Origin: Magnolia sinica
Taxonomy: Eukaryota; Streptophyta; Magnoliopsida; Magnoliales; Magnoliaceae
DNA length: 64,000 nucleotides
Direction of reading: 5' to 3'
Assembly: GCF_029962835.1 (NCBI RefSeq)
Contig: NC_080577.1
Coordinates: 6,916,001 to 6,980,000, forward strand
Under the pieces are notes generated by a model. It worked only from the letters and a program-made list of their open reading frames with translations, searched no databases and had not been told where the DNA came from. Made by a program: the position numbers and the translations under genes. Positions 3,966 through 45,296 of the stretch are shown here, piece after piece; positions within the stretch are counted from its first letter, which is position 1; each line of letters begins with the position of its first letter.

Positions 3966-4914
3966 TGTTGAGATTAAAATCTGGACCACCCTCCACTCAA
4001 TGCGGTGAACTCGAAACAGACCCTAGTGCTGCATAAAAAGAGTGAGCAAAGGAGACCCTGACTTAAACAATGGACCCTTCGATGCCTAAGTTAGGTTAAG
4101 GAATCTGGGTCTAAGTTGCGTAATGTAGAGAGAGGGTGCGAGATATTGCGTACCTGTTACAATGGAGTCTCCTAGTATTTATACATGTGGGTCGAGCAGA
4201 TTATGTCCGTCAATCTCAGCATGATCTACTCAATTAAGCGAATATTGTGATCATGGAGATACTCCACAATCTTTGGATCGTGAGCGTATCTCCAGGCGTG
4301 ATCTTCGGCCACGCTCACATTCAGACTGGTTTCCCAGCTCAATACTCGGAGTATCTTCATTCAGGCTCAAACCTCGTCCTATCCAAGTCCGTGGCTGAGT
4401 ATTTATAGTCGGAATTCATAGTCGAGTCATCAGGATCGGAGTCTGCTAGGCGTGCTTATTTAGCGCTTAGCTCTCGGCCTCTAGGTTGAGGATGAGTCTG
4501 TCGATCCGAGACCGTAGCTTCTTGAATGAAGACGAGGACAAGGACGAGGACGAGAGCTCAGCTCGACCAACCTTCTTCGGATGAGGATAAGGACGAGGAC
4601 GAGGATGAGAGCTCGGCTCGACCAACCTTTTTCGGACGAGGACAAGGACAAGGACGAGGACGAGAGCTCGACTCGGCCAACCTTCTTCGGATGAGGATGA
4701 AGACAAGGACGAGGACGAGAGCTCGTCTTACCCAGCCTAGGATCGTAGTTCAGACGTCCACTCGCACCCAACATGATGTTCTCTTTCCGAGGCCCTATTA
4801 ATTGGCTCAGATGGCTCGGGCCGACCCCGTTTGACCCTGTCCAGATTTCCCCACAACCAGCTACATTAGTGCCGGGCCGACCCTGTTTGACCCTGTCCAG
4901 ATTTTCCCATAACA
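3966..4914 (-). repeat. gypsy 5' LTR, about 949 bp
   Basis: On the minus strand the LTR begins TGTTATGGGAAAATCTGG and ends CTCAACA beside the primer-binding site. It contains a 4 x 55-bp minisatellite at about 4530-4740. The ends and several internal blocks match the solo LTR at 27644-28626, for example the 'caatctcagca(c/t)gatct' and 'ggaatctgggtc' blocks. A 56-bp tandem duplication covers its outer edge, so the boundary could be one repeat unit off. Confidence 0.75.
4530..4740. repeat. 55-bp minisatellite inside gypsy LTR
   Basis: The block gagagctc starts at 4552, 4607, 4662 and 4717, exactly 55 bp apart each time. It is followed by a purine-rich gaggacgagg tract. Open frames on both strands here are by-products of the repeat and not genes. 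Confidence 0.85.
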
Positions 4915-5890: not shown

Positions 5891-6930
5891 GGACGCGGTC
5901 TGGCTACTGACTCTGCCATCGGCCGGGTGGCTAGTGGTCGGTGCTACGTGGACCCTACCATGATGTATATGTTTTATCCACGCCTTCCATGAATTTTAAA
6001 AGATAATAGATAATTTTAAGTATTGATCCCAAAATTGAGGTAGATCTAAATATCAGGTGGACCACACTATAGGAAAACAGTAGTGATTGAATTTGTACCA
6101 TTAAAAGCCTCTTACGGGCCCACTGTAATGGTTATTTGACATCTAACCCGTTGATTATGAATTTTAAAAGATAATAGATAATTTTAAGTATTGATCCCAA
6201 AATTGAGGTAGATCTAAATATCAGGTGGACCACACTATAGGAAAACAGTAGTGATTGAATTTGTACCATTAAAAACCTCTTACGGGCCCACTGTAATGGT
6301 TATTTGACATCTAACCCGTTGATTATGAATTTTAAAAGATAATAGATAATTTTAAGTATTGATCCCAAAATTGAGGTAGATCTAAATCTCAGGTGGACCA
6401 CACTATAGGAAAACAGTAGTGATTGAATTTGTACCATTAAAAACCTCTTACGGGCCCACTGTAATGGTTATTTGACATCTAACCTGTTGATTATGAATTT
6501 TAAAAGATAATAGATAATTTTAAGTATTGATCCCAAAATTGAGGTAGATCTAAATCTCAGGTGGACAACACTGTAGGAAAACAGTAGTGATTGAATTTGT
6601 ACCATTAAAAACCTCTTAGGGGCCCACTGTAATGGTTATTTGACATCTAACCTGTTGATTATGTCAAACAGACTTGGATTAAGGGAAAATATATATATCA
6701 GCTTGATCCAAAACTTTTGCGGCCCCAATAAGTTTTTAATGGTGGGAGTTCAATCAACACTGTGCGGTCCACTTGAGATTTTGATCAACCTCATTTTTGG
6801 CATCATACTATAAAATGATCTGGAAGAAAGGGTAAACGGTATGGATGAAACACATACATGATGGTGGGGCCCACAGAGGATGACCACTAGCCATTGGCTA
6901 GTGGCAGGGTGAGTAGCCGATCCGTTTCCC
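5891..6930. mobile_element. foldback hAT-like element with internal array (copy A)
   Basis: The ends are long imperfect inverted repeats: left about 5900-5990 (GGCTACTGACTCTGCCA, GGCTAGTGGTC, GTGGACCCTACCATGATGTA), and the complement of these at 6820-6925. The element is flanked by a perfect 8-bp direct repeat TGATATTT (5883-5890 and 6931-6938), the target-duplication size of hAT elements. The left arm is expanded by four 168-bp tandem units. No transposase frame is present, so it is non-autonomous. Confidence 0.75.
5991..6662. repeat. 4 x 168-bp tandem array
   Basis: The block gaattttaaaagataataga begins at 5991, 6159, 6327 and 6495, exactly 168 bp apart, and the phase closes at 6663. Units differ at only a few positions. 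Each unit is a piece of the foldback left arm, from the 'aattgaggtagatct' block to 'gacatctaacc(c/t)gttgat'. Confidence 0.95.
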
Positions 6931-17587: not shown

Positions 17588-18356
17588 TGTTAGAATATTT
17601 AGTTGAATTAAATAAACCATTAAAATCAAGAATTAAAAAAGAAAAATAAAATTTTGAGAAAGAAGAACTTATTGAATTGAGTCAAGGTGTGCCTGAGTCA
17701 CTCGGCTTGAAATCGAATTTGCTCCCCTTGGACAGCGTCCCAAGTGCAACAGGTTTTCAGAGCAATCGACCTCCAGGATACAACGACTATGACCCAGTCT
17801 CAGCGGTGCACTCACTATACACGAGCTCGAACCACTTGCAGTTTAATCTGAAAGTTCTAAGTTGACTTAGCGATGAACTCAATAAAATTCTTAAAACCGT
17901 ATTAGAGAGAGTTTTATAAGAGAGATAATAATTTCGTATGTTTTAAAACTGGAATCGGTAGTCTTTATATAGACTCTGAAGTGATGTATAAACACCCTTT
18001 ACAAAAGGTTAGGTCCGTTGGTTTGGGATGCATCTATCTGGTTTAAAAACGACACGGACTCGACTCGGCTCGGCGAGCACACACCAGTGTGGTCAATGGC
18101 ATAGATTAGAGCTATTGGCATAGACCCCTAGCCCCCTAGCCCCCCCTCCCTCGCAGGACCAAATTCACATGCCCCGTAAAAGGGGCTCAAGTCCTAGATA
18201 AAAAGATTATCTTATATACAAGATATTTTATTTTGTCAAATCCGATGTGGAACAAAATCCACATCACAAAAGTACCAAAACTTTTCAAATATGAAGGGAA
18301 ATTATCAAAAGTTTGAAATTTGAAATTTTAATATTATTTTAAAACAAAATATAACA
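17588..18356 (-). mobile_element. solo LTR, 769 bp, with TAGAA target duplication
   Basis: The termini are TGTTAGAATATT and ATATAACA, inverted TG...CA ends. The perfect 5-bp direct repeat TAGAA flanks it (17583-17587 and 18357-18361). On the minus strand it has a 'ccacatcgga' motif and a TATATAAG box, followed by a leader-like region. Orientation is therefore minus. No internal domain is present. A copia-type source is guessed from the 'ccacatcgg' plus TATA arrangement only. Confidence 0.8.
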
Positions 18357-18809
18357 TAGAATGTTGATGGAATGACCACATTAAAAACTTCCCAGTGATA
18401 CAACGATTTTGGACTAAGCTGATATTTGTTTTTTAACCTTCTTTTACGTATGCATGATCTACTCAACCAATTAGATGTCAAATAAGCATTACAATGGGGC
18501 TCAAGCCCTAGGCAAAAAGATTATCTTATATACAAGATAGTTTACTTTATCAAATCCGATGTGGAACAAAACCCACAACACAAAAGTACCAAAACTTTTC
18601 AAATGTGAAGGAAAATTATCAAAAATTTAAAAGTTCAAATTTTAATATTATTTTAAAACAAAATATAGCATAGAATGTTGATTGAATGCCCACATTAAAA
18701 ACTTCCCGATGATACAACGATTTTGGACTAAGCTGATATTTGTTTTTTAACCTTCTTTTACATATGCATGACCTACTCAACCACTTAGATGTCAAATAAG
18801 CATTACAAT
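18182..18809 (+). repeat. 2 x 314-bp tandem duplication
   Basis: ggggctcaag begins at 18182 and at 18496, and the second copy ends where the phase closes at 18810 (gcattacaatgg). The unit spans the last part of the solo LTR plus part of the host foldback arm, so the duplication happened after the LTR inserted. Confidence 0.95.
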
Positions 18810-27643: not shown

Positions 27644-28626
27644 TGTTGATGCAAAAATCTGGCTTCTCCAACCATGCCCCGACAGCTAGCTCCAAGCCCT
27701 AATGGCTAGCTCCGAGTCTTGTGAGCCTGCACAAGAGAAGGACAAAGGAGACCCTGGCTTGAGCAGGGGACCCTCCGATGCCAAAGTCAAGATAGGAATC
27801 TGGGTCGAAGTAATGTAGCTGGGGTTTAGAGTGTCAAATGTTGCGTACTTGTTCCAATGGATTCATCTCCTATTTATACCTGTGGATCAAAGGGGACGTG
27901 GCCGTCAATCTCAGCACGATCTCTTCCATCAAGCGGGCGCTGCACATGCGCTGATGTCGGCCGTTATCCTTAGATCGTGCACCGGGCAACTCTCTAACAT
28001 GCCTTATTGGGGTTGTTTCTTTAGCGTGATCCTCAGCCACGTGTGCATCCAAGCTGATCTTGGCACGATCTCTTCCATCAAGCGGGCGCTGCGCATGCGC
28101 TGATGTCGGCCGTTATCCTTAGATCGTGCACCGGGCAACTCTCCAACATGCCTTATTGGGGTTGTTTCTTTAGCGTGATCCTCGGCCACGTGTGCATCCG
28201 AGCCAATCTTAGCCCACGGCCCTCCGAGCCCATGAGCGTTAGTCTTGGTCAGATCTCGGATGACTCATATCAACACCAAGCACTAGTTCTCCGACTCCTG
28301 CCTACGAGTCGGACATATAGCACCATATTCTCATCTGACTCGGGCCTTGCTTACGATCCATCGAGCCACTGATCGGAGTAGACGGGTCGGGTGCATTCTG
28401 GTTTCTTCCAGGTTTCAGGCCAGTGTCAAAGCTCAGACATGCGATCCAAGCTGTAGTACTTTGGATGAGAGTTCCAGACGTCGGTGTAGCCCAATCTTCT
28501 TCTCTTCTAAACCCTAGTTTTAGAATCGTAGTTCGGAAGTGTGGTCAGTTCGGATGTAATGAGGCTCTGCTCATCGATTTCTCCAAGTTGGCCTTTATTG
28601 GGTTCGGCTCAGATTTTCCCATAACA
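27644..28626 (-). mobile_element. solo LTR, 983 bp, with ATGCT target duplication (gypsy-related)
   Basis: On the minus strand it starts TGTTATGGGAAAATC and ends ATCAACA. A perfect 5-bp direct repeat ATGCT flanks it (27639-27643 and 28627-28631). It is collinear with the gypsy LTR at 3966-4914 in its terminus, in the 'gagaccctggcttgagca' region, in 'ggaatctgggtc' and in 'caatctcagcacgatct'. An internal 149-bp segment is duplicated. It was formed by LTR-LTR recombination of a relative of the left-edge element. Confidence 0.85.
27914..28211 (+). repeat. 2 x 149-bp tandem duplication inside solo LTR
   Basis: gcacgatctcttccatcaag begins at 27914 and at 28063. The two units differ at only a few bases (cacatgcg/cgcatgcg, tctaac/tccaac, cctcag/cctcgg). 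Confidence 0.95.
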
Positions 28627-37810: not shown

Positions 37811-38438
37811 CATTCCTTGAACGCATGGTGGGCTCAGTCTAATCAATAGTTTAAGTTGCTAATAAACATTACAATGGACCCTAAAAAGTTTTTAATGCAA
37901 GAGCCACGTTCAGTTATTTGATAGGTTTGGACACGTGGCAGCTTCCTTCAAGCCCAAAGAAAAATAAGTCTCCCATGTGTATTTTACTAAGGCAGCGATT
38001 GGGCACTACCCCACCAGGACCTAGGGCTTCGTGGGCCCCACTGTGAATATCTGTCTTATCTAGTTGTTCATCCATTTTAAAAAAATCATTTTAGAACATG
38101 CGCCAAAAAGGAGACGGATTTAAGGCTCGAGTGGATCATATCATTAGAAGCAGCGGTGACAATGACATCCACCGTTAAAACATTCCTAGGGCCAATCATA
38201 ATATTTATTGCCATCCTACTTATTCATAATTGGTTGCATGACCTAAATAAAGGGAAAACATAAATATCAGCTTGATCCAAAACTTTCGTGGCCCCAAGAG
38301 GTGCATTCAATCCTCATTATTTCACATAGAGTGGTCCACTTGAAAATTCCATCTAACTCAATTTAAGGCTCATAGCATAAAACGATCTTTCAAAATGAAT
38401 GAACAACATGAAGAAAATACATACATTCATTCAGGTGG

Positions 38439-39576
38439 TATTGCAAAATATTTATTTTTAAAAGTATATTTTAATAAAATAAAAAATAATATATAATATA
38501 TAAAAAGTGTTTGAAAACACACTTTTTTATAGGTTTTAGGAATAATTCCATATTGGAAAAGGAGAAGAACTTTTTGTGGTTTAAATGAAATCAGTGGAGT
38601 ATTATAATATTTGCTTACCTAATCCAAGGACTATGGACCTTGCTCGGGCTCGAGCTCGGTTACGGGCTCGATTCGATCTTGGGCTCGGTACGAGGGTGTC
38701 GGCATGTGTACATGTCGCGGTGCGACTAAGTGGCTAAGGTAAATGGCTGGATGAAGGGGAGACTAAAGGACTGAATGAGAGTCCTCCAGTATATAGAAAG
38801 AGCTGGAAAAAAAGCTGTTGCAGCAGATCTGTAACAGCTGTGCCATTAGTGTAAGGTCCAGTAGTAACTGTTGCATGGCTAACTCAACAGCTAAAAAACG
38901 GCTAGTTGCTGTCTCACAACAGTTAGCTTGCAGTAGCTTAATGGCCCATGCACAACAATAAAAAAAGGGCTATAAAAAGGCTAGTTTTCTCTAACTGCTA
39001 GAAAACAGTCATGGAATTTAATTCCCTAGACCATAACCCTCAGCCACCATAGCCTATAAAAGGAGGGCCTGGATGGGTTTCCAAACCATCTCTCAACCCA
39101 TTCTAGCAGACCCATACAAACTGAGACAGCCCACTACTCATCTCCTATACTCTAGTTATTCCAGTAAGACAGCAAGGATTGAACCTTTGCTCGAAGAACA
39201 GACCAACGGTGTGGTCTACAACGGTTCAACTGAACTAGTGGCTGAAGAACTGACCAGTGCAGTGGTCTAATTTAAATATTCTTCTTCTCTCTTTTCTTCT
39301 AGGATTTTTCTTTTGTTTTTCTGCCAGATTGTGTAACAGAGTTCCATTTGGTCGGCCTTCGTGTTTGCTAAATGCAGACCCACACCAAGCTCATTGTATC
39401 TTATAAGCGGTTTGCCTATAACCTATCAGCATACTCAATTCACTTGAGTAGGGGCAAATAACGCTTTAAGGACAGCGTTTCAGACGTGCTTCAGCCTGTC
39501 CATATTTCAAGCTAATTTTTTATTTTTCGATTTCCACATTATACAAAAATTATATTAATCTATATAAAATCCAACA
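38439..39576 (+). repeat. copia 5' LTR
   Basis: Runs from TATTGCAAAATA (first dinucleotide mutated from TG) to ATCCAACA. A TATA box CTATAAAAGG is at 39053-39062. A second TATA-like word, CTATAAC, is at about 39416-39422. A GC-rich hypervariable tract near 38640-38720 differs strongly from the other LTR. Confidence 0.9.
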
Positions 39577-39578
39577 AT

Positions 39579-39594
39579 CTTAAAGCGTTATTTG
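39579..39594 (+). other. candidate self-complementary primer-binding site
   Basis: Starting two bases after the LTR, this 16-nt segment (cttaaagcgttatttg) is the exact reverse complement of 39455-39470 in the 5' LTR, and of 45114-45129 in the 3' LTR. The usual plant copia site TGGTATCAGAGC (initiator tRNA-Met) is absent here. Confidence 0.6.
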
Positions 39595-39628
39595 ATGGAA
39601 GCCGATGGTGTTTCTTCCATCAAGTTGA

Positions 39629-42600
39629 TGAATCAAGACTTGATATGTCTTGATCGGTTCGATGGAACCAATTTTACAAGGTAGTAAGATAAGCTGAAAT
39701 TTCTTCTGATGGCGCTAAAGATCTACTACATATTACATTCAAATCTGCAAGCACTACCTGAAGCATCTGACACAGACACACCTGAATAGGTGACTGCCCA
39801 CACCAAACGAGCTAAAGACGAACTCTTGTGTCGATGACACGTTCTGAACGCGCTCTCCGACCGCCTGTACGATCTATACCAATAGACGTCATCAGTAAAG
39901 GAGATCTTGGTCGTTCTGGAGTTCAAATATAAGGCTGAAGAAGAAGGTAGCAACAAGTTTCTCATCGCCAAGTATTTTGACTTCAACATGGTAGATAACA
40001 AACCGCTGCTACTCCAAATCAAAGAACTGCAGCTAATAGTAAACAAAATCAAAGTTATTAAAATTGATCTTCCTAAATCATTCCAAGTCGGGGCTATAAT
40101 CGCTAAATTGCCATCGATATGGAAAGATATAGAAAGAAGTTGCTTCATAAAATTGAGGACTATATACTGGAACAAATTCAGAAACACCTCAAAATTGAGG
40201 AAGAATCCCGTAACCGCGACAGAAAGAATGATAACGGGAATGCCTCGTCAAAGGTACATGCAGTAGAGAACACTAATAACAAGAATTCCGAGAAGGACGA
40301 TTCCTTAAAACCTAATAAAAGAAAATTCAAGAAAAATGCCCAAAAGAAGAACGAAAAGTTCAAAGGCTCATGCCATGTCTGTGGAAAAATCGGACACTAT
40401 GCTCGAGTATGCCGATATCGCAAATCTAAAAAAGAGGCAAGTACAGTAGAAAAATGTGATATTGTAGCTATGATCACTGAGGTGAATACCATCCAAGGCA
40501 AAGTTTCAGGTTGGTGGTATGATACTACTGCTACAGTACATGTGTGCTACGAAAAATCAGCCTTCAAAACCTATGAAGAATTGACTGATGGTCAAGAAGT
40601 CCAAATGAATAATGAAGTCCGATCGAAGGTCGTCGGCAAAGGAACTGTCGAACTGATATTCATCTCTAGGAAGAAAGTGATTCTAACTAATGTACTGCAC
40701 GTCCCAAACATTAGGTGAAACTTAGTTTCTGGGGATCTTCTGGAAAAACCAGGTATAAGGATGGTGTACGAGTCAGGTAAACTGATTCTATCCAAGAATG
40801 AGAATTTTGTCGGAAAGGGATATGCTTGCAATAAGATGGTTAAGTTTTCTCTAAATGAAAGTAGTACTTCTGCGTATATGGTTGAATCCATTGGACTGTG
40901 GCATGATAAACTAGCCCATATAGGGTATAGTAACTTGAAGTTCATGGCTAGGAATGGTTTAATTTCATACACAGATAATGAAACCGATAAATGTGAAGTG
41001 TACATATGATCCAAAATGACGAAGAAACCTTTTCCAAGTGTTGAAAGATTATCTCAAATATTGGATCTAGTGCACAGTGACATCTGTGAGTTAAATGACA
41101 TTCTTACTCGTGGAGATAAACAGTACTTCATAACCTTTATAGATGATTGCTCTAGATATGTGTATGTTTATCTGTTAAAGAGCAAAAATGAAACATTGAA
41201 CATGTTTAAAATATATAAAAAAGAAGTAGAGAATCAACTAAATAAAAAGATAAAATTCTCTATAGCGATAGAGGAGGAGAATACTTCTCCAATGAATTCG
41301 ATAACTTCTGTGAAGAACATGGACTAATACATTAATGTACTTTCCCATACACACCTCAACAAAACAGAATAGCTGAAAAGAAGAATATAACATTAGTAGA
41401 GATGGTCAACTCAATGCTGATAAGAGCAAAGTTGTCACTAAGTCTATGGGGTGACACATTATTTGCAACGTGCCATATACTAAACAGAATTCCATCTAAA
41501 AAATATAAAATATCTCCATATGAAACATGGAGAGGTAGAAAACCTAACCTAGGATATCTTAAAGTGTGGGGGTGTCTTGTATACTACAGAACTCCTGATC
41601 CAAAAAAGAACTAAGTTAGGACCAAAAGCTATTAAGTGCATCTTCGTAAGGTATGCACAAAATAGTAAAGCTTATAGACTTCTAGATATAGAGTCTAATA
41701 CAATAATAGAATCAAGAGACGTTAAGTTCTTTGAAAACTCACTATCCTTGGAGTCAAAGGATAATGAAATTCAAACTCCTAATAGAGAACCAAATAGCAT
41801 AACTCCACAGATAGTGGAAGCTCTTATTGAACTTCGTAGGAGTCAAAGGACAAGAATAGAGAAGAGTCTAGAAGATGACTACATAAATTCACAAGACGTC
41901 ATTCTCTATCTTGTAGAAGGAGATAGAGAAAATGTTATAAGAAAAATACCTATAGTGATGACTATATAAGATGATCCTAAAACATATAAAGAGGTTGTAT
42001 CTTCTAAAGACTCAGCTTTCTGAAAAGAAGCTATAAACGATGAAATGAAATCCATACTGTCAAATCAAACATGGGAACTAGTAAACTTACCTCCAGGTTC
42101 TAGACCTATAGGTTGTAAGTGGGTATTTAGAAAGAAATATCACACTGATGGGACTATCCAAAACATTAAAGCTCGACTAGTAACTAAGGGTTTTAGACAA
42201 AAAGAATGGATAGATTACTTTGACACATACTCTCCTGTAGCTAGGATAACATCCATTAGGATATTATTTGCGCTAGCTTCCATACATCATCTTCACATCC
42301 ACCAAATAGATGTAAAAACCACATTTCTGAATGGTGACCTTAATGAGGAGGTATACATAGAACAACCTGAATGTTTCGTTCTATCAGGAAATGAAAATAA
42401 AGTATGTAAATTAGTCAAATCTTTATATGGATTAAAACAAGTACCAAAATAATGACATGAAAAGTTTGATTCCAAAATACTATCTCATAGTTTCATACAT
42501 AATGTAGCTGATAAATGCATATATTCTAAAGTAGATGGTAGTTATATCGTTATTATTTGTCTGTATGTTGATGACATGTTAATAATAAGTAATAAAATGG

Positions 42601-43543
42601 AAGGTGTAACTGAAACAAAGAGGTTTCTATCTTCCGTATTCAAAATGAAGGATCTTGGACAAGTTGATACCATTCTAGGTATCAAAGTTAGAAAACATTG
42701 TGGGGGTTATGCTTTGTGTCAATCTCATTATATTGAGAAGATGCTACATAAGTTTAATCATCTAAATATAAAAGAAGCCAAAACCCCATTTGATCCAAAT
42801 ATCAAGCTAAAAGAGAATAAGGGGAGAACAGTTGCACAATTAGAATATGCGAGTGCTATAGGAAGTCTTATGTATGCTATGCAATTCACTAGACCTGATA
42901 TCGCATATGCTGTGAATAAACTTAGCAGGTTTACTAGTAACCCCAGTACTAAACACTAGAATGTAATCAGTAAAGTCATTAGTTACTTAAAGGCAACGAA
43001 AGACTTAGGACTATTTTGTTTAGAGTTTCCTACCGTATTGGAAGGATATACCGATGCGAGCTGGATATCGAGTGCAAGGGATAACAAATCTACTATAGGG
43101 TGAGTATTCACCCTAGGAAGTGCAGCTGTATCTTGGGGATCCAAGAAACAGACTTGCATAATGCACTCGACTATAGAGTATGAATTCATAGCCCTAGCTG
43201 CAACAGGCAAAGAGGCTGAGTGGCTAAGGGATCTTCTATTAGAAATTCCTCTCTGTGTAAAGCCTATATTGGCTGTGTCACTAAATTATGATAGTGAAGA
43301 CACATTAGCTAGAGCCTATAGCGGCACATATAATGGTAAGTTTAGACATATCAGTTTTCGACATGATTATGTCAGACAATTGATTCGAGATGGATTCATT
43401 GCTATTTCCTATATAAAATCAAGCAGTAACCTGGCAGATCCTTTCACTAAACCTCTATCGAGAGAGGTAGTAAAAGCTACATTTAAAGGGATGATGTTAA
43501 AACTCTTCAACCAAAGTTCCACCAGTGATGGTAACCCAATCTA
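39629..43543 (+). pseudogene. copia gag-pol, multiply broken
   Basis: Gag starts MNQDLICLDRFDGTNFTR and meets two stops at once (39683-39688), then continues with KLKFLLMALKIYYIL. The zinc knuckle CHVCGKIGHYARVC is at about 40371-40412. Protease has DTTATVHVC where copia elements normally have DSGA/TxH, so its active-site glycine is lost; its frame stops at 40718. The integrase zinc region (LWHDKLAHIGYSNLK) is at about 40897. The integrase core (LDLVHSDICELND, FITFIDDCSRYVYVYLL) is shifted out of frame near 41262. Core end and GKR-type region are at 41402-41969 in two frames. Reverse transcriptase (WVFRKKYHTDG, IDVKTTFLNGDLNEEVYIEQP, then YVDDM at about 42568) has a stop pair at 42450. RNase H has TDASW and MHSTIEYEFIAL. 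It ends at 43543. At least eight stops or frameshifts are visible. Confidence 0.9.
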
Positions 43544-44088
43544 AAGTCAGAAAATCTCCAATTTCGGGTTTAATGGGTAAGAATAAGTCACTGATATGTG
43601 GAAAGTTTTCTGCATTAGATTATAAAACCTCATCCATAATAGATAAGTGCTGAGCGTTACGAAAGAGAGTTGAGTCTTATAACTCTTAATGAAATCCAAT
43701 CTATAGGACAAGTGTCTTATAGTAACGGAGACACTAGAAGGATTTCACCTATATGAACGTAAAGATAGTGCAGCCTCTCATGAGAATTAGGAGTTTTCTC
43801 TCATGATCGTTCACGAATTAGGATAAGCGCATGGACATTAATTGTGCTCAGCAAGATTATGAGAACTCTAACAAACACATAGCGAATATGTGTGTAGTTT
43901 CTCTGACTTTGTTATCAAGGAATAACTGGTTCAATGCTATGGCTACTAGCCATTTCGACAGAGTTTTGAGATACTTACACTAAGGGAAGATTAAAATCGA
44001 AAGATATCTTTCTTTATACATATAAGCCGATTATTTTGGCAGAAATGTTTAATCGTGAAAAAATATTTTTTAAAATCAAGTGGGGGAT
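43544..44088 (+). other. copia 3' untranslated region and polypurine tract
   Basis: About 545 bp of non-coding element sequence ends in the purine tract aagtgggggat directly before the 3' LTR (TGTTGCAAAATA). Confidence 0.8.
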
Positions 44089-45235
44089 TGTTGCAAAATA
44101 TTATTTTTTAAAAATATATTTTAATAAAATAAAAAATAATATATAATATATAAAAAAGTGTTTACAAAATACTTTTTTATAGGTTTTGGGAATAGTCTCA
44201 CATTGAAAAAAGAGAAGAACTTTTTGTGGTTTAAATGAAAACAATGGAGTTTTATAATATTTACTTACCTAGTCCAAGGACTATGGACCTCACTGGAACA
44301 CCCTCACGCTCGGGCACGGGCACGGGCACGAGCTCAGGCTCGGTCTCGGGCACGGGCTTGGAGTGAGGGCGTGGGCATGTGAGGCAGTGTGGCTGTAGAG
44401 GCGCTAGTGGCGTACTTTGCACTAGAGGACTGAATGAGAGTCCTTCAGTATATATAGAGAGCTAGAAAAAGAGATGTTGCAGCAAATTTGTAACAGTTAT
44501 GCCATTAGTGTAGGGTCAAGCAGTAACTGCTGCATGGCTATCCCAACAGCTAGAAAACGGCTAGCTGCTGTCTCACAACAGTCAGCATGTAGCAACTTAA
44601 TGGCCCATGCACAACAGTCAGAAAACGGCCATAAAACGACTAGTTTTCTCCAACTGCTAGAAAACAGTCATAAGATTTAATTCCCTGGACCATAACCCCC
44701 AGCCACCATAGCCTATAAAAGGAGGGACTGGATGGGTTTTCAAACCATCTCTCAACCCACTCCAACAGACCTATACGAACTGAGACAACCCACTACTCCT
44801 TTCTTATACTCCAGTTATTCCAGTAAGACAGCAAGGATTGAATCTTTGCTCGAAGAACAGACCAATGGTGTGGTCTACAACAGTTCAACTGAACCAGTGG
44901 CTGAAGAACTGACCAGTGCAGTGGTCTAATTTAAATATTCTTCTTCTCTCTTTTCTTCTGGGATTTTTCTTTTGTTTTTCTGCCAGATTGTGTAACAGAG
45001 TTCCATTTGGCGGGCCTTCGTGTTTGCTGAACGTAGACCCACACCAAGCTCGTCGTATCCTAGAAGCAATTTGCCTGTAACCTATCAGCATACTCAATTC
45101 ACTTGAATAGGGGCAAATAACGCTTTAAGAACAGTGTTTTAGACGTGCTTCAGTCTGTCCATATTTCAAGCTAATTTTTTATCTTTCGGTTTCCACATTA
45201 TACAAAAATTATATTAATCTGTATAAAATCTAATA
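44089..45235 (+). repeat. copia 3' LTR
   Basis: Starts TGTTGCAAAATA and ends ATCTAATA (CA end mutated). The TATA box cctataaaagg is kept near 44711. The second TATA-like word of the 5' LTR is TGTAAC here. It keeps the 16-nt segment complementary to the element's primer site (45114-45129). Confidence 0.9.
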
Positions 45236-45296
45236 GGTTGGTCTCTCAGCCCCGACGGGACCATCCGTCTCTAGCAAGGTCCTGGTGGTTCCAATT

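Follow-up and report, generated by a model that had tools for sequence, protein, structure and literature searches.

A family of Ty1/copia retrotransposons in Magnolia sinica most probably primes its reverse transcription with a piece of its own RNA. The member considered here is an old, broken element at 38439-45235 on the + strand of the window, the 64,000-nucleotide stretch of DNA that was analysed (NC_080577.1, 6,916,001-6,980,000). A segment of its 5' LTR, the putative self-primer CAAATAACGCTTTAAG (39455-39470, + strand), is the perfect complement of the primer binding site (PBS) CTTAAAGCGTTATTTG (39579-39594, + strand), which lies two bases past the LTR, after AT. As a primer matching the PBS is carried in the element's own RNA, the element and its relatives probably do not borrow a host tRNA.

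The 16-nt self-complementarity had been noticed in a sequence-only reading of the window, and it is real: 39455-39470 is the exact reverse complement of 39579-39594. Both LTRs keep the segment, as that reading had also stated, the copy in the 3' LTR lying at 45114-45129 with a match there of 17 nt. Within the segment is a conserved core of 14 bp (AATAACGCTTTAAG, 39457-39470, + strand). The usual plant copia PBS, TGGTATCAGAGC, is indeed absent at the LTR junction of the window element, which thus has no PBS of the tRNA-iMet type. The chance expectation of a 16-nt complement anywhere in a 1.14-kb LTR is about 3e-7, or 1.6e-6 if any of six start offsets is allowed. In the available text of PMC6317226, the criterion for self-priming is an LTR complement of at least 10 bp starting 0-5 bp past the 5' LTR; in the window element the complement is 16 nt long and starts at +2.

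The remaining parts of the element, all on the + strand, can be followed from end to end. A 5' target-site duplication, GGTGG (38434-38438), has as its 3' counterpart GGTTG (45236-45240), with four of five bases matching. The 5' LTR (38439-39576, 1138 bp), in which the initial TG is mutated to TA, ends in CCAACA, and it is 85.8% identical to the 3' LTR (44089-45235, 1147 bp) in an alignment of 1153 columns that includes 29 gap columns. The gag start, ATGGAAGCCGA (39595-39684), has its ATG at 39595, immediately 3' of the PBS, and an in-frame stop at 39682-39684. It is followed by a Gag zinc knuckle and protease-like part (40107-40715; Pfam PF22936 Pol_BBD; CHVCGKIGHYARVC in translation), an integrase core fragment (41010-41324; PF00665 rve, E 3.3e-5, below the Pfam cut-off), and a copia reverse transcriptase (42024-42956) in two open fragments split by a stop, both of which match PF07727 RVT_2 when scanned apart (1.2e-43). 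Pfam also matches gag_pre-integrs in the fragments of the element, while no chromodomain was found in a Pfam scan of six such fragments. A polypurine tract, AAGTGGGGGAT (44078-44088), adjoins the 3' LTR. The assignment to Ty1/copia is based on the RVT_2-type reverse transcriptase, the LTRs, the polypurine tract, the target-site duplication (4/5) and the position of the integrase upstream of the reverse transcriptase, with the rve match below cut-off. Elsewhere, the window holds tandem repeats at 5989-6792 (units of about 168 bp), 4519-4738 (about 55 bp), 27908-28205 (about 149 bp) and 18179-18792 (about 314 bp).

Copies of the element and paired sequence change

Relatives were sought in the 1.84 Gb genome by several routes. 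A DNA search with the element gave at least 41 matches, the best 40 of 1905 first-look candidates being scored. Both arms, the LTR segment and the PBS, were recognisable in 28 aligned copies; the full 16 nt matched exactly in 12 of these, and in the remainder with one or few differences. A protein search with the reverse transcriptase gave at least 150 matches at 84-100% identity (the best 150 of 31413 first-look candidates were scored), and the regions upstream of 20 of the 150 were examined. A PF07727 profile search of the genome likewise gave at least 150 copia reverse transcriptase places, and a search of viral contigs for a related reverse transcriptase confirmed none. Two loci, L054 and L055, represent a second family (B), with reverse transcriptases 85% and 84% identical to that of the window element over 167 aa; in the LTR-PBS-gag region, B is only about 66% identical to the family of the window element (A). 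A search with L055 found 40 places, of which 20 were used as loci. Finally, a free-base pattern around the paired cores matched 408 places in the genome, and its reversed control none; the first 60 of about 100 matches listed among the 408 were used.

Altogether 128 loci were examined, and both arms were located in 122 of them (87 of family A and 35 of family B), the window copy (L001) included. The pattern search supplied 58 of the 122, and as the pattern demands CTTTAAG/CTTAAAG cores, positions 8-14 carry no evidential weight in those loci. The six that were missed are L037, L045 (rearranged), L053 (no match) and L043, L044 and L051, in which the site falls outside the piece; L107-L109, which contain the site missing from these last three, were counted. 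Left out before counting were L179 and L193, which repeat L105 and L022, and L087, which is the same place as L055; the reverse transcriptase loci L029-L036, L110 and L142 are not among the counted rows.

Several loci are rearranged around the site. In L037 (C19:22957049-22959049), a deletion removes the LTR from about the TATA region onward and ends in the middle of the PBS, so that the remaining PBS adjoins the start of gag. L045 has a duplicated and partly inverted U5/PBS region with an 18-nt self-complement. At L003:1245-1279, in family A, a shortened U3/R carries an additional 35-nt piece of primer and downstream hairpin, such as template switching might leave.

The pairing of the two arms (helix 1) is retained across the copies. 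Over the 14-bp core, 1656 of 1708 cells in the 122 loci are standard or G:U pairs, and the helix is perfect in 61 copies. The arms differ between the families: in A the LTR arm is AATAACGCTTTAAG and the arm past the LTR is CTTAAAGCGTTATT, and in B they are AATCACGCTTTAAG and CTTAAAGCGTGATT, respectively. All 87 family-A copies have A:T at position 4. In family B this position is C:G in 31 of 35 copies, and T:A (L183), T:G, C:T and C:A in one copy each. At position 6 the 122 loci read C:G in 97 cases, T:G in 13, C:A in 10, and A:T (L163) and A:G in one each; L163 is itself unpaired at position 4. Position 0, just outside the core, counts against paired change: 81 of the 87 family-A copies have A:T there, and 26 of the 35 family-B copies an unpaired G:A, with pairs in only 7 of the 35 (five G:C, two G:U). 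That it is mostly unpaired in family B can be attributed to the gag ATG, which directly adjoins in 26 copies. The CpG of the core (positions 6-7) is the site of most one-sided decay in the 122 loci, C to T or G to A, a footprint of the methylation type.

Covariation was measured in an alignment of 31 sequences, the window copy and 30 of the 60 pattern-search loci, hand-picked for diversity. In this alignment 96.1% of cells pair, compared with 27.4-52.6% when the partners are slid by 1-3 columns. Neither the number of cells with both-sided change (13) nor the covariation score (0.107) was reached in any of 500 shuffles of these sequences. Two of the five shuffle measures did not rise above chance, namely pairs with both-sided change (401/500) and further pair types (241/500). 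Few of the both-sided changes are independent: the A/B split at position 4 is one event, and L183 and L163 each add a single copy. Co-variation of the 16-nt pair among family members, which had been suggested as a check, is thus found, LTR and PBS having changed together between A and B, in a small number of events. It could be argued that the match is due to chance, or is a mutational relic without function, given that the window copy is old and broken, with diverged LTRs and stops in its reading frames. However, this is extremely improbable in view of the chance expectation given above and of a match kept in 122 located loci, in two families and with both-sided change.

Host tRNAs as candidate primers

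The sequence-only reading had allowed that a shared tRNA fragment might explain the match, and had suggested a search of the 16 nt against the tRNAs of the species. The set compared here is a partial one, of 62 ARAGORN genes from 61 genome places together with a tRNA-Ile(AAU) motif, and it holds no matching tRNA or tRNA half. Exact matches of the 62 genes to the primer-sense strand extend to 6 nt at most, and a comparison of the element with Rfam, with matches considered up to E 10, gave no tRNA. The closest fit is to tRNA-Ile(AAU). A motif of its anticodon arm containing AATAACGC, 8 nt of the primer-sense strand, occurs at 18 genome places, and the whole tRNA-Ile(AAU) shares the same 8 nt. 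The motif is clustered, with 5 of the 18 places at G000:C11:79600212-79601544 and 6 at G000:C16:7805053-7913049. The shared 8 nt lie in the wrong register, and none of the tRNAs examined fits as the cause of the match.

Priming by a cleaved tRNA-Ile(AAU), with the LTR match incidental, would resemble the case of Bianca, for which half of tRNA-Ile is the reported primer in the available text of PMC6317226. The presence of AATAACGC in the anticodon arm favours this explanation. Nevertheless, the match is of 8 nt only and leaves unpaired the six PBS bases nearest the LTR, where the 3' end of the primer must sit. In addition, family B, with AATCACGC, loses the tRNA match and keeps its partner in the LTR. 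A half tRNA-Ile primer therefore does not fit, and we regard it as highly improbable. A PBS of the Bianca type, the complement of half tRNA-Ile, was accordingly rejected for this element.

A broader alternative is that a host tRNA or other RNA outside the compared set primes reverse transcription, and that the LTR:PBS helix serves instead in folding, dimerisation, packaging or control of translation from the gag ATG. The set of 62 genes is incomplete, and helix 1 ends near the gag ATG, where it could control translation: 31 of the 87 A copies have a gap of 2 nt (TG/TA), and 26 of the 35 B copies have none. Against this, helix 1 begins exactly at the PBS position, and the longest exact matches among the tRNAs examined are the 6 nt, and the 8 nt of tRNA-Ile(AAU), already described. 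Furthermore, by the established course of retroelement replication, plus-strand copying of a foreign primer would renew the PBS toward that primer and not toward the LTR. This alternative seems to us unlikely. The spacer between PBS and gag ATG varies by subfamily, being absent in the 26 B copies and TG in 27, TTTCTG in 9 and TTACTG in 8 of the 87 A copies, with others besides; across the 122 loci the 14-bp core is largely fixed while this spacer varies.

Position of the primer in the RNA and folding of the leader

The sequence-only reading had placed a transcript start near 39450, on the strength of a TATA-like CTATAAC near 39416, and so had put the complementary segment at the 5' end of the RNA, exactly as in Tf1. 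This start is not supported. The sequence is CTGTAAC in the window's own 3' LTR and in 59 of the 65 loci that have the stretch; CTATAAC is found in 4 of the 65, the window copy and three others, and is a point variant rather than the TATA box of the family. The same reading had noted that a stronger TATA box at 39053 argues for a different start, and this objection is borne out. The box, in the CCTATAAAAGGAGG region (39053-39064, + strand), is TATAAA in 34 of 36 family-A loci, one of the others having TATTAAA and one a shifted or poor match. These are loci in which the surrounding 36 nt were found with at most 6 mismatches, and since that stretch contains the box, the count leans toward it. 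Of 19 family-B loci, 18 have a TATATAA located 244-254 nt upstream of the primer. A start near 39450 is therefore very unlikely. The RNA of the window copy would instead start at about 39083, some 30 nt after the TATA box, which would put the primer near +370 in family A and near +220 in family B. With conserved TATA boxes about 400 nt (A) and 250 nt (B) upstream, the primer is probably internal and freed by cleavage, rather than the RNA 5' end. Thus, of the Tf1-like scheme first proposed, self-priming itself remains the best reading, given the position of the PBS, the conservation, the both-sided change and the lack of a fitting tRNA among those examined, and the placing of the primer at the RNA 5' end does not.

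In the proposed self-priming, the LTR segment would anneal to the PBS in packaged RNA, and the RNase H of the element, or another nuclease, would cut just 3' of the segment, at 39470/39471. The freed 3' end of this internal stretch would then be extended across U5 as minus-strand strong-stop DNA. Plus-strand synthesis would copy the primer and so renew the PBS from the LTR, which would keep the two matched. With a primer cut in cis, no more than about 106 nt of template would be left; a primer supplied by a second packaged RNA would avoid this limit.

Folding of the leader RNA, another of the suggested checks, places the primer:PBS pairing of the window copy as the central helix, with a hairpin against the 3' end of the primer and the gag ATG right after the PBS (-34.8 kcal/mol, z -1.89; 6 of 200 shuffles were as good). 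The hairpin, GACAG..CTGTC (39471-39500, + strand), comes from folding of the window leader and of the 28 copies, and directly follows the primer. Helix 1 is part of the minimum-energy fold in 21 of the 28 first copies and absent in 7. RNAalifold, applied per family, recovered helix 1 in part for B and did not find it for A, possibly owing to disruption of positions 6-7 by CpG decay.

A second helix may form between U5 and the first codons of gag. In the window copy its U5 arm is TCGATTTCCA (39527-39536, + strand), complementary to the gag start at 39596-39605. Its common family-A form joins TCGGTTTCCA of U5 to TGGAAGCCGA of gag, and its family-B form joins TTTCGGTGT(AT)CC of U5 to GGACACCGAAA of gag. 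The mean energies are -12.5 (A) and -12.8 (B) kcal/mol, compared with -5.6 and -4.6 for letter-shuffled U5, and the fraction of shuffled U5 reaching the observed mean is 0.004 (A) and 0.0 (B). When the families are crossed, B U5 with A gag gives -9.3 kcal/mol, and A U5 pairs almost equally well with B gag (-11.3 compared with -12.5 kcal/mol). For 8 of the 87 A copies, another part of U5 gives the best duplex with the gag start. Over 120 loci (L159 and L163, in which these arms were not found, are left out), 1007 of 1080 cells pair, and shuffling across families yields no more than 978. When the shuffling is kept within families there is no signal, since the observed value is reached 499 times in 500, so the support for this helix consists of the A/B difference and the energy test. 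One pair has changed on both sides (U:A to G:C), and another from U:G to U:A.

The second helix would cross helix 1, and the arrangement is suggestive of a pseudoknot resembling the Tf1 'pretzel', in which U5 is tied to the gag start. It is graded no higher because the gag arm is coding and the arms were located by family-specific motifs. More tentatively, plant Ty1/copia elements might have evolved independently a Tf1-like pseudoknotted primer complex, in which an internal R/U5 segment pairs with the PBS and U5 with the first gag codons. Primer cleavage would then be tied to gag translation, with no need of a host tRNA and no exposure to silencing by tRNA fragments. We consider this wider proposal less likely than not.

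Comparison with known systems

The sequence-only reading had held that self-priming was not known for plant copia elements. It has in fact been predicted already: according to the available text of Neumann et al. 2019 (PMC6317226), self-priming is predicted for 12% of the plant LTR elements that were studied, the Ty1/copia TAR lineage among them, and an earlier proposal of self-priming for Houba and Osr-1 is cited there. In rice, drug treatment induces eccDNA of Houba (PMC5501947, available text). A review of plant LTR elements from December 2025 (PMC12786077) describes tRNA priming, and the term 'self-prim' does not occur in its available text. The TAR lineage (Houba, Osr-1) resembles the window element in being plant copia without a tRNA-type PBS and with a PBS complementary to its own 5' LTR (PMC6317226, available text). 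The predicted self-priming PBS is the one TAR feature compared, and the window element has it. The TAR prediction was based on a blastn match of at least 10 bp, and the available text of that paper describes no compensatory change, position of the primer relative to a TATA box, or pseudoknot.

Two other copia groups invite comparison. The Bianca lineage of Ty1/copia, reported to use half of tRNA-Ile, is comparable in the 8 nt that the window element shares with the anticodon arm of tRNA-Ile(AAU), but differs in that this match is in the wrong register and is not kept in family B. The fungal Ty1/copia element GalEa, with its Conserved Hairpin Site, is likewise a copia element without a tRNA PBS (PMC5445492, available text). 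It differs in having a palindrome at the site and, according to what its authors state there, no complementary U5 segment, whereas the window element has one.

The closest parallel in structure lies outside copia. In Tf1 of fission yeast and Tj1, of the Tf1/sushi group, a self-primer from the LTR is complementary to the PBS, and sequence flanking the PBS pairs with the LTR downstream of the primer to form the 'pretzel' (PMC10085805 and PMC4600332, available text). These are Ty3/gypsy chromoviruses with a chromodomain, unlike the window element, which has a copia reverse transcriptase of the RVT_2 type with the integrase before it. The Tf1-type primer is the 5' end of the RNA (PMC4600332 and PMC10085805, available text), while that of the window family is probably internal, judging by the position of the TATA boxes. 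The Tf1 pretzel has two flanking helices; here, one crossing helix is seen in both families, and an AT-rich inverted repeat upstream of the PBS (39539-39569, + strand) is present in family A and absent from family B.

Among the papers listed in searches of the open-licence PMC literature, none was seen to describe compensatory change or a pretzel-type pseudoknot in plant copia. The window family is probably a further case of the predicted self-priming of plant copia elements, with better evidence. In the literature available, such self-priming has so far been deduced from simple complementarity, and both-sided change in two families is stronger evidence. What may be added here is compensatory change, traced to a small number of independent events, a primer that in both families seems to be internal, and possibly a Tf1-like pseudoknot. 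An internal primer would mean that the standard account of strong-stop synthesis and first-strand transfer has to be extended, either by a cleavage step or by a primer that a second packaged RNA provides. Elements without a tRNA primer would, moreover, escape the PBS-directed tRNA fragments to which tRNA-primed elements are exposed.
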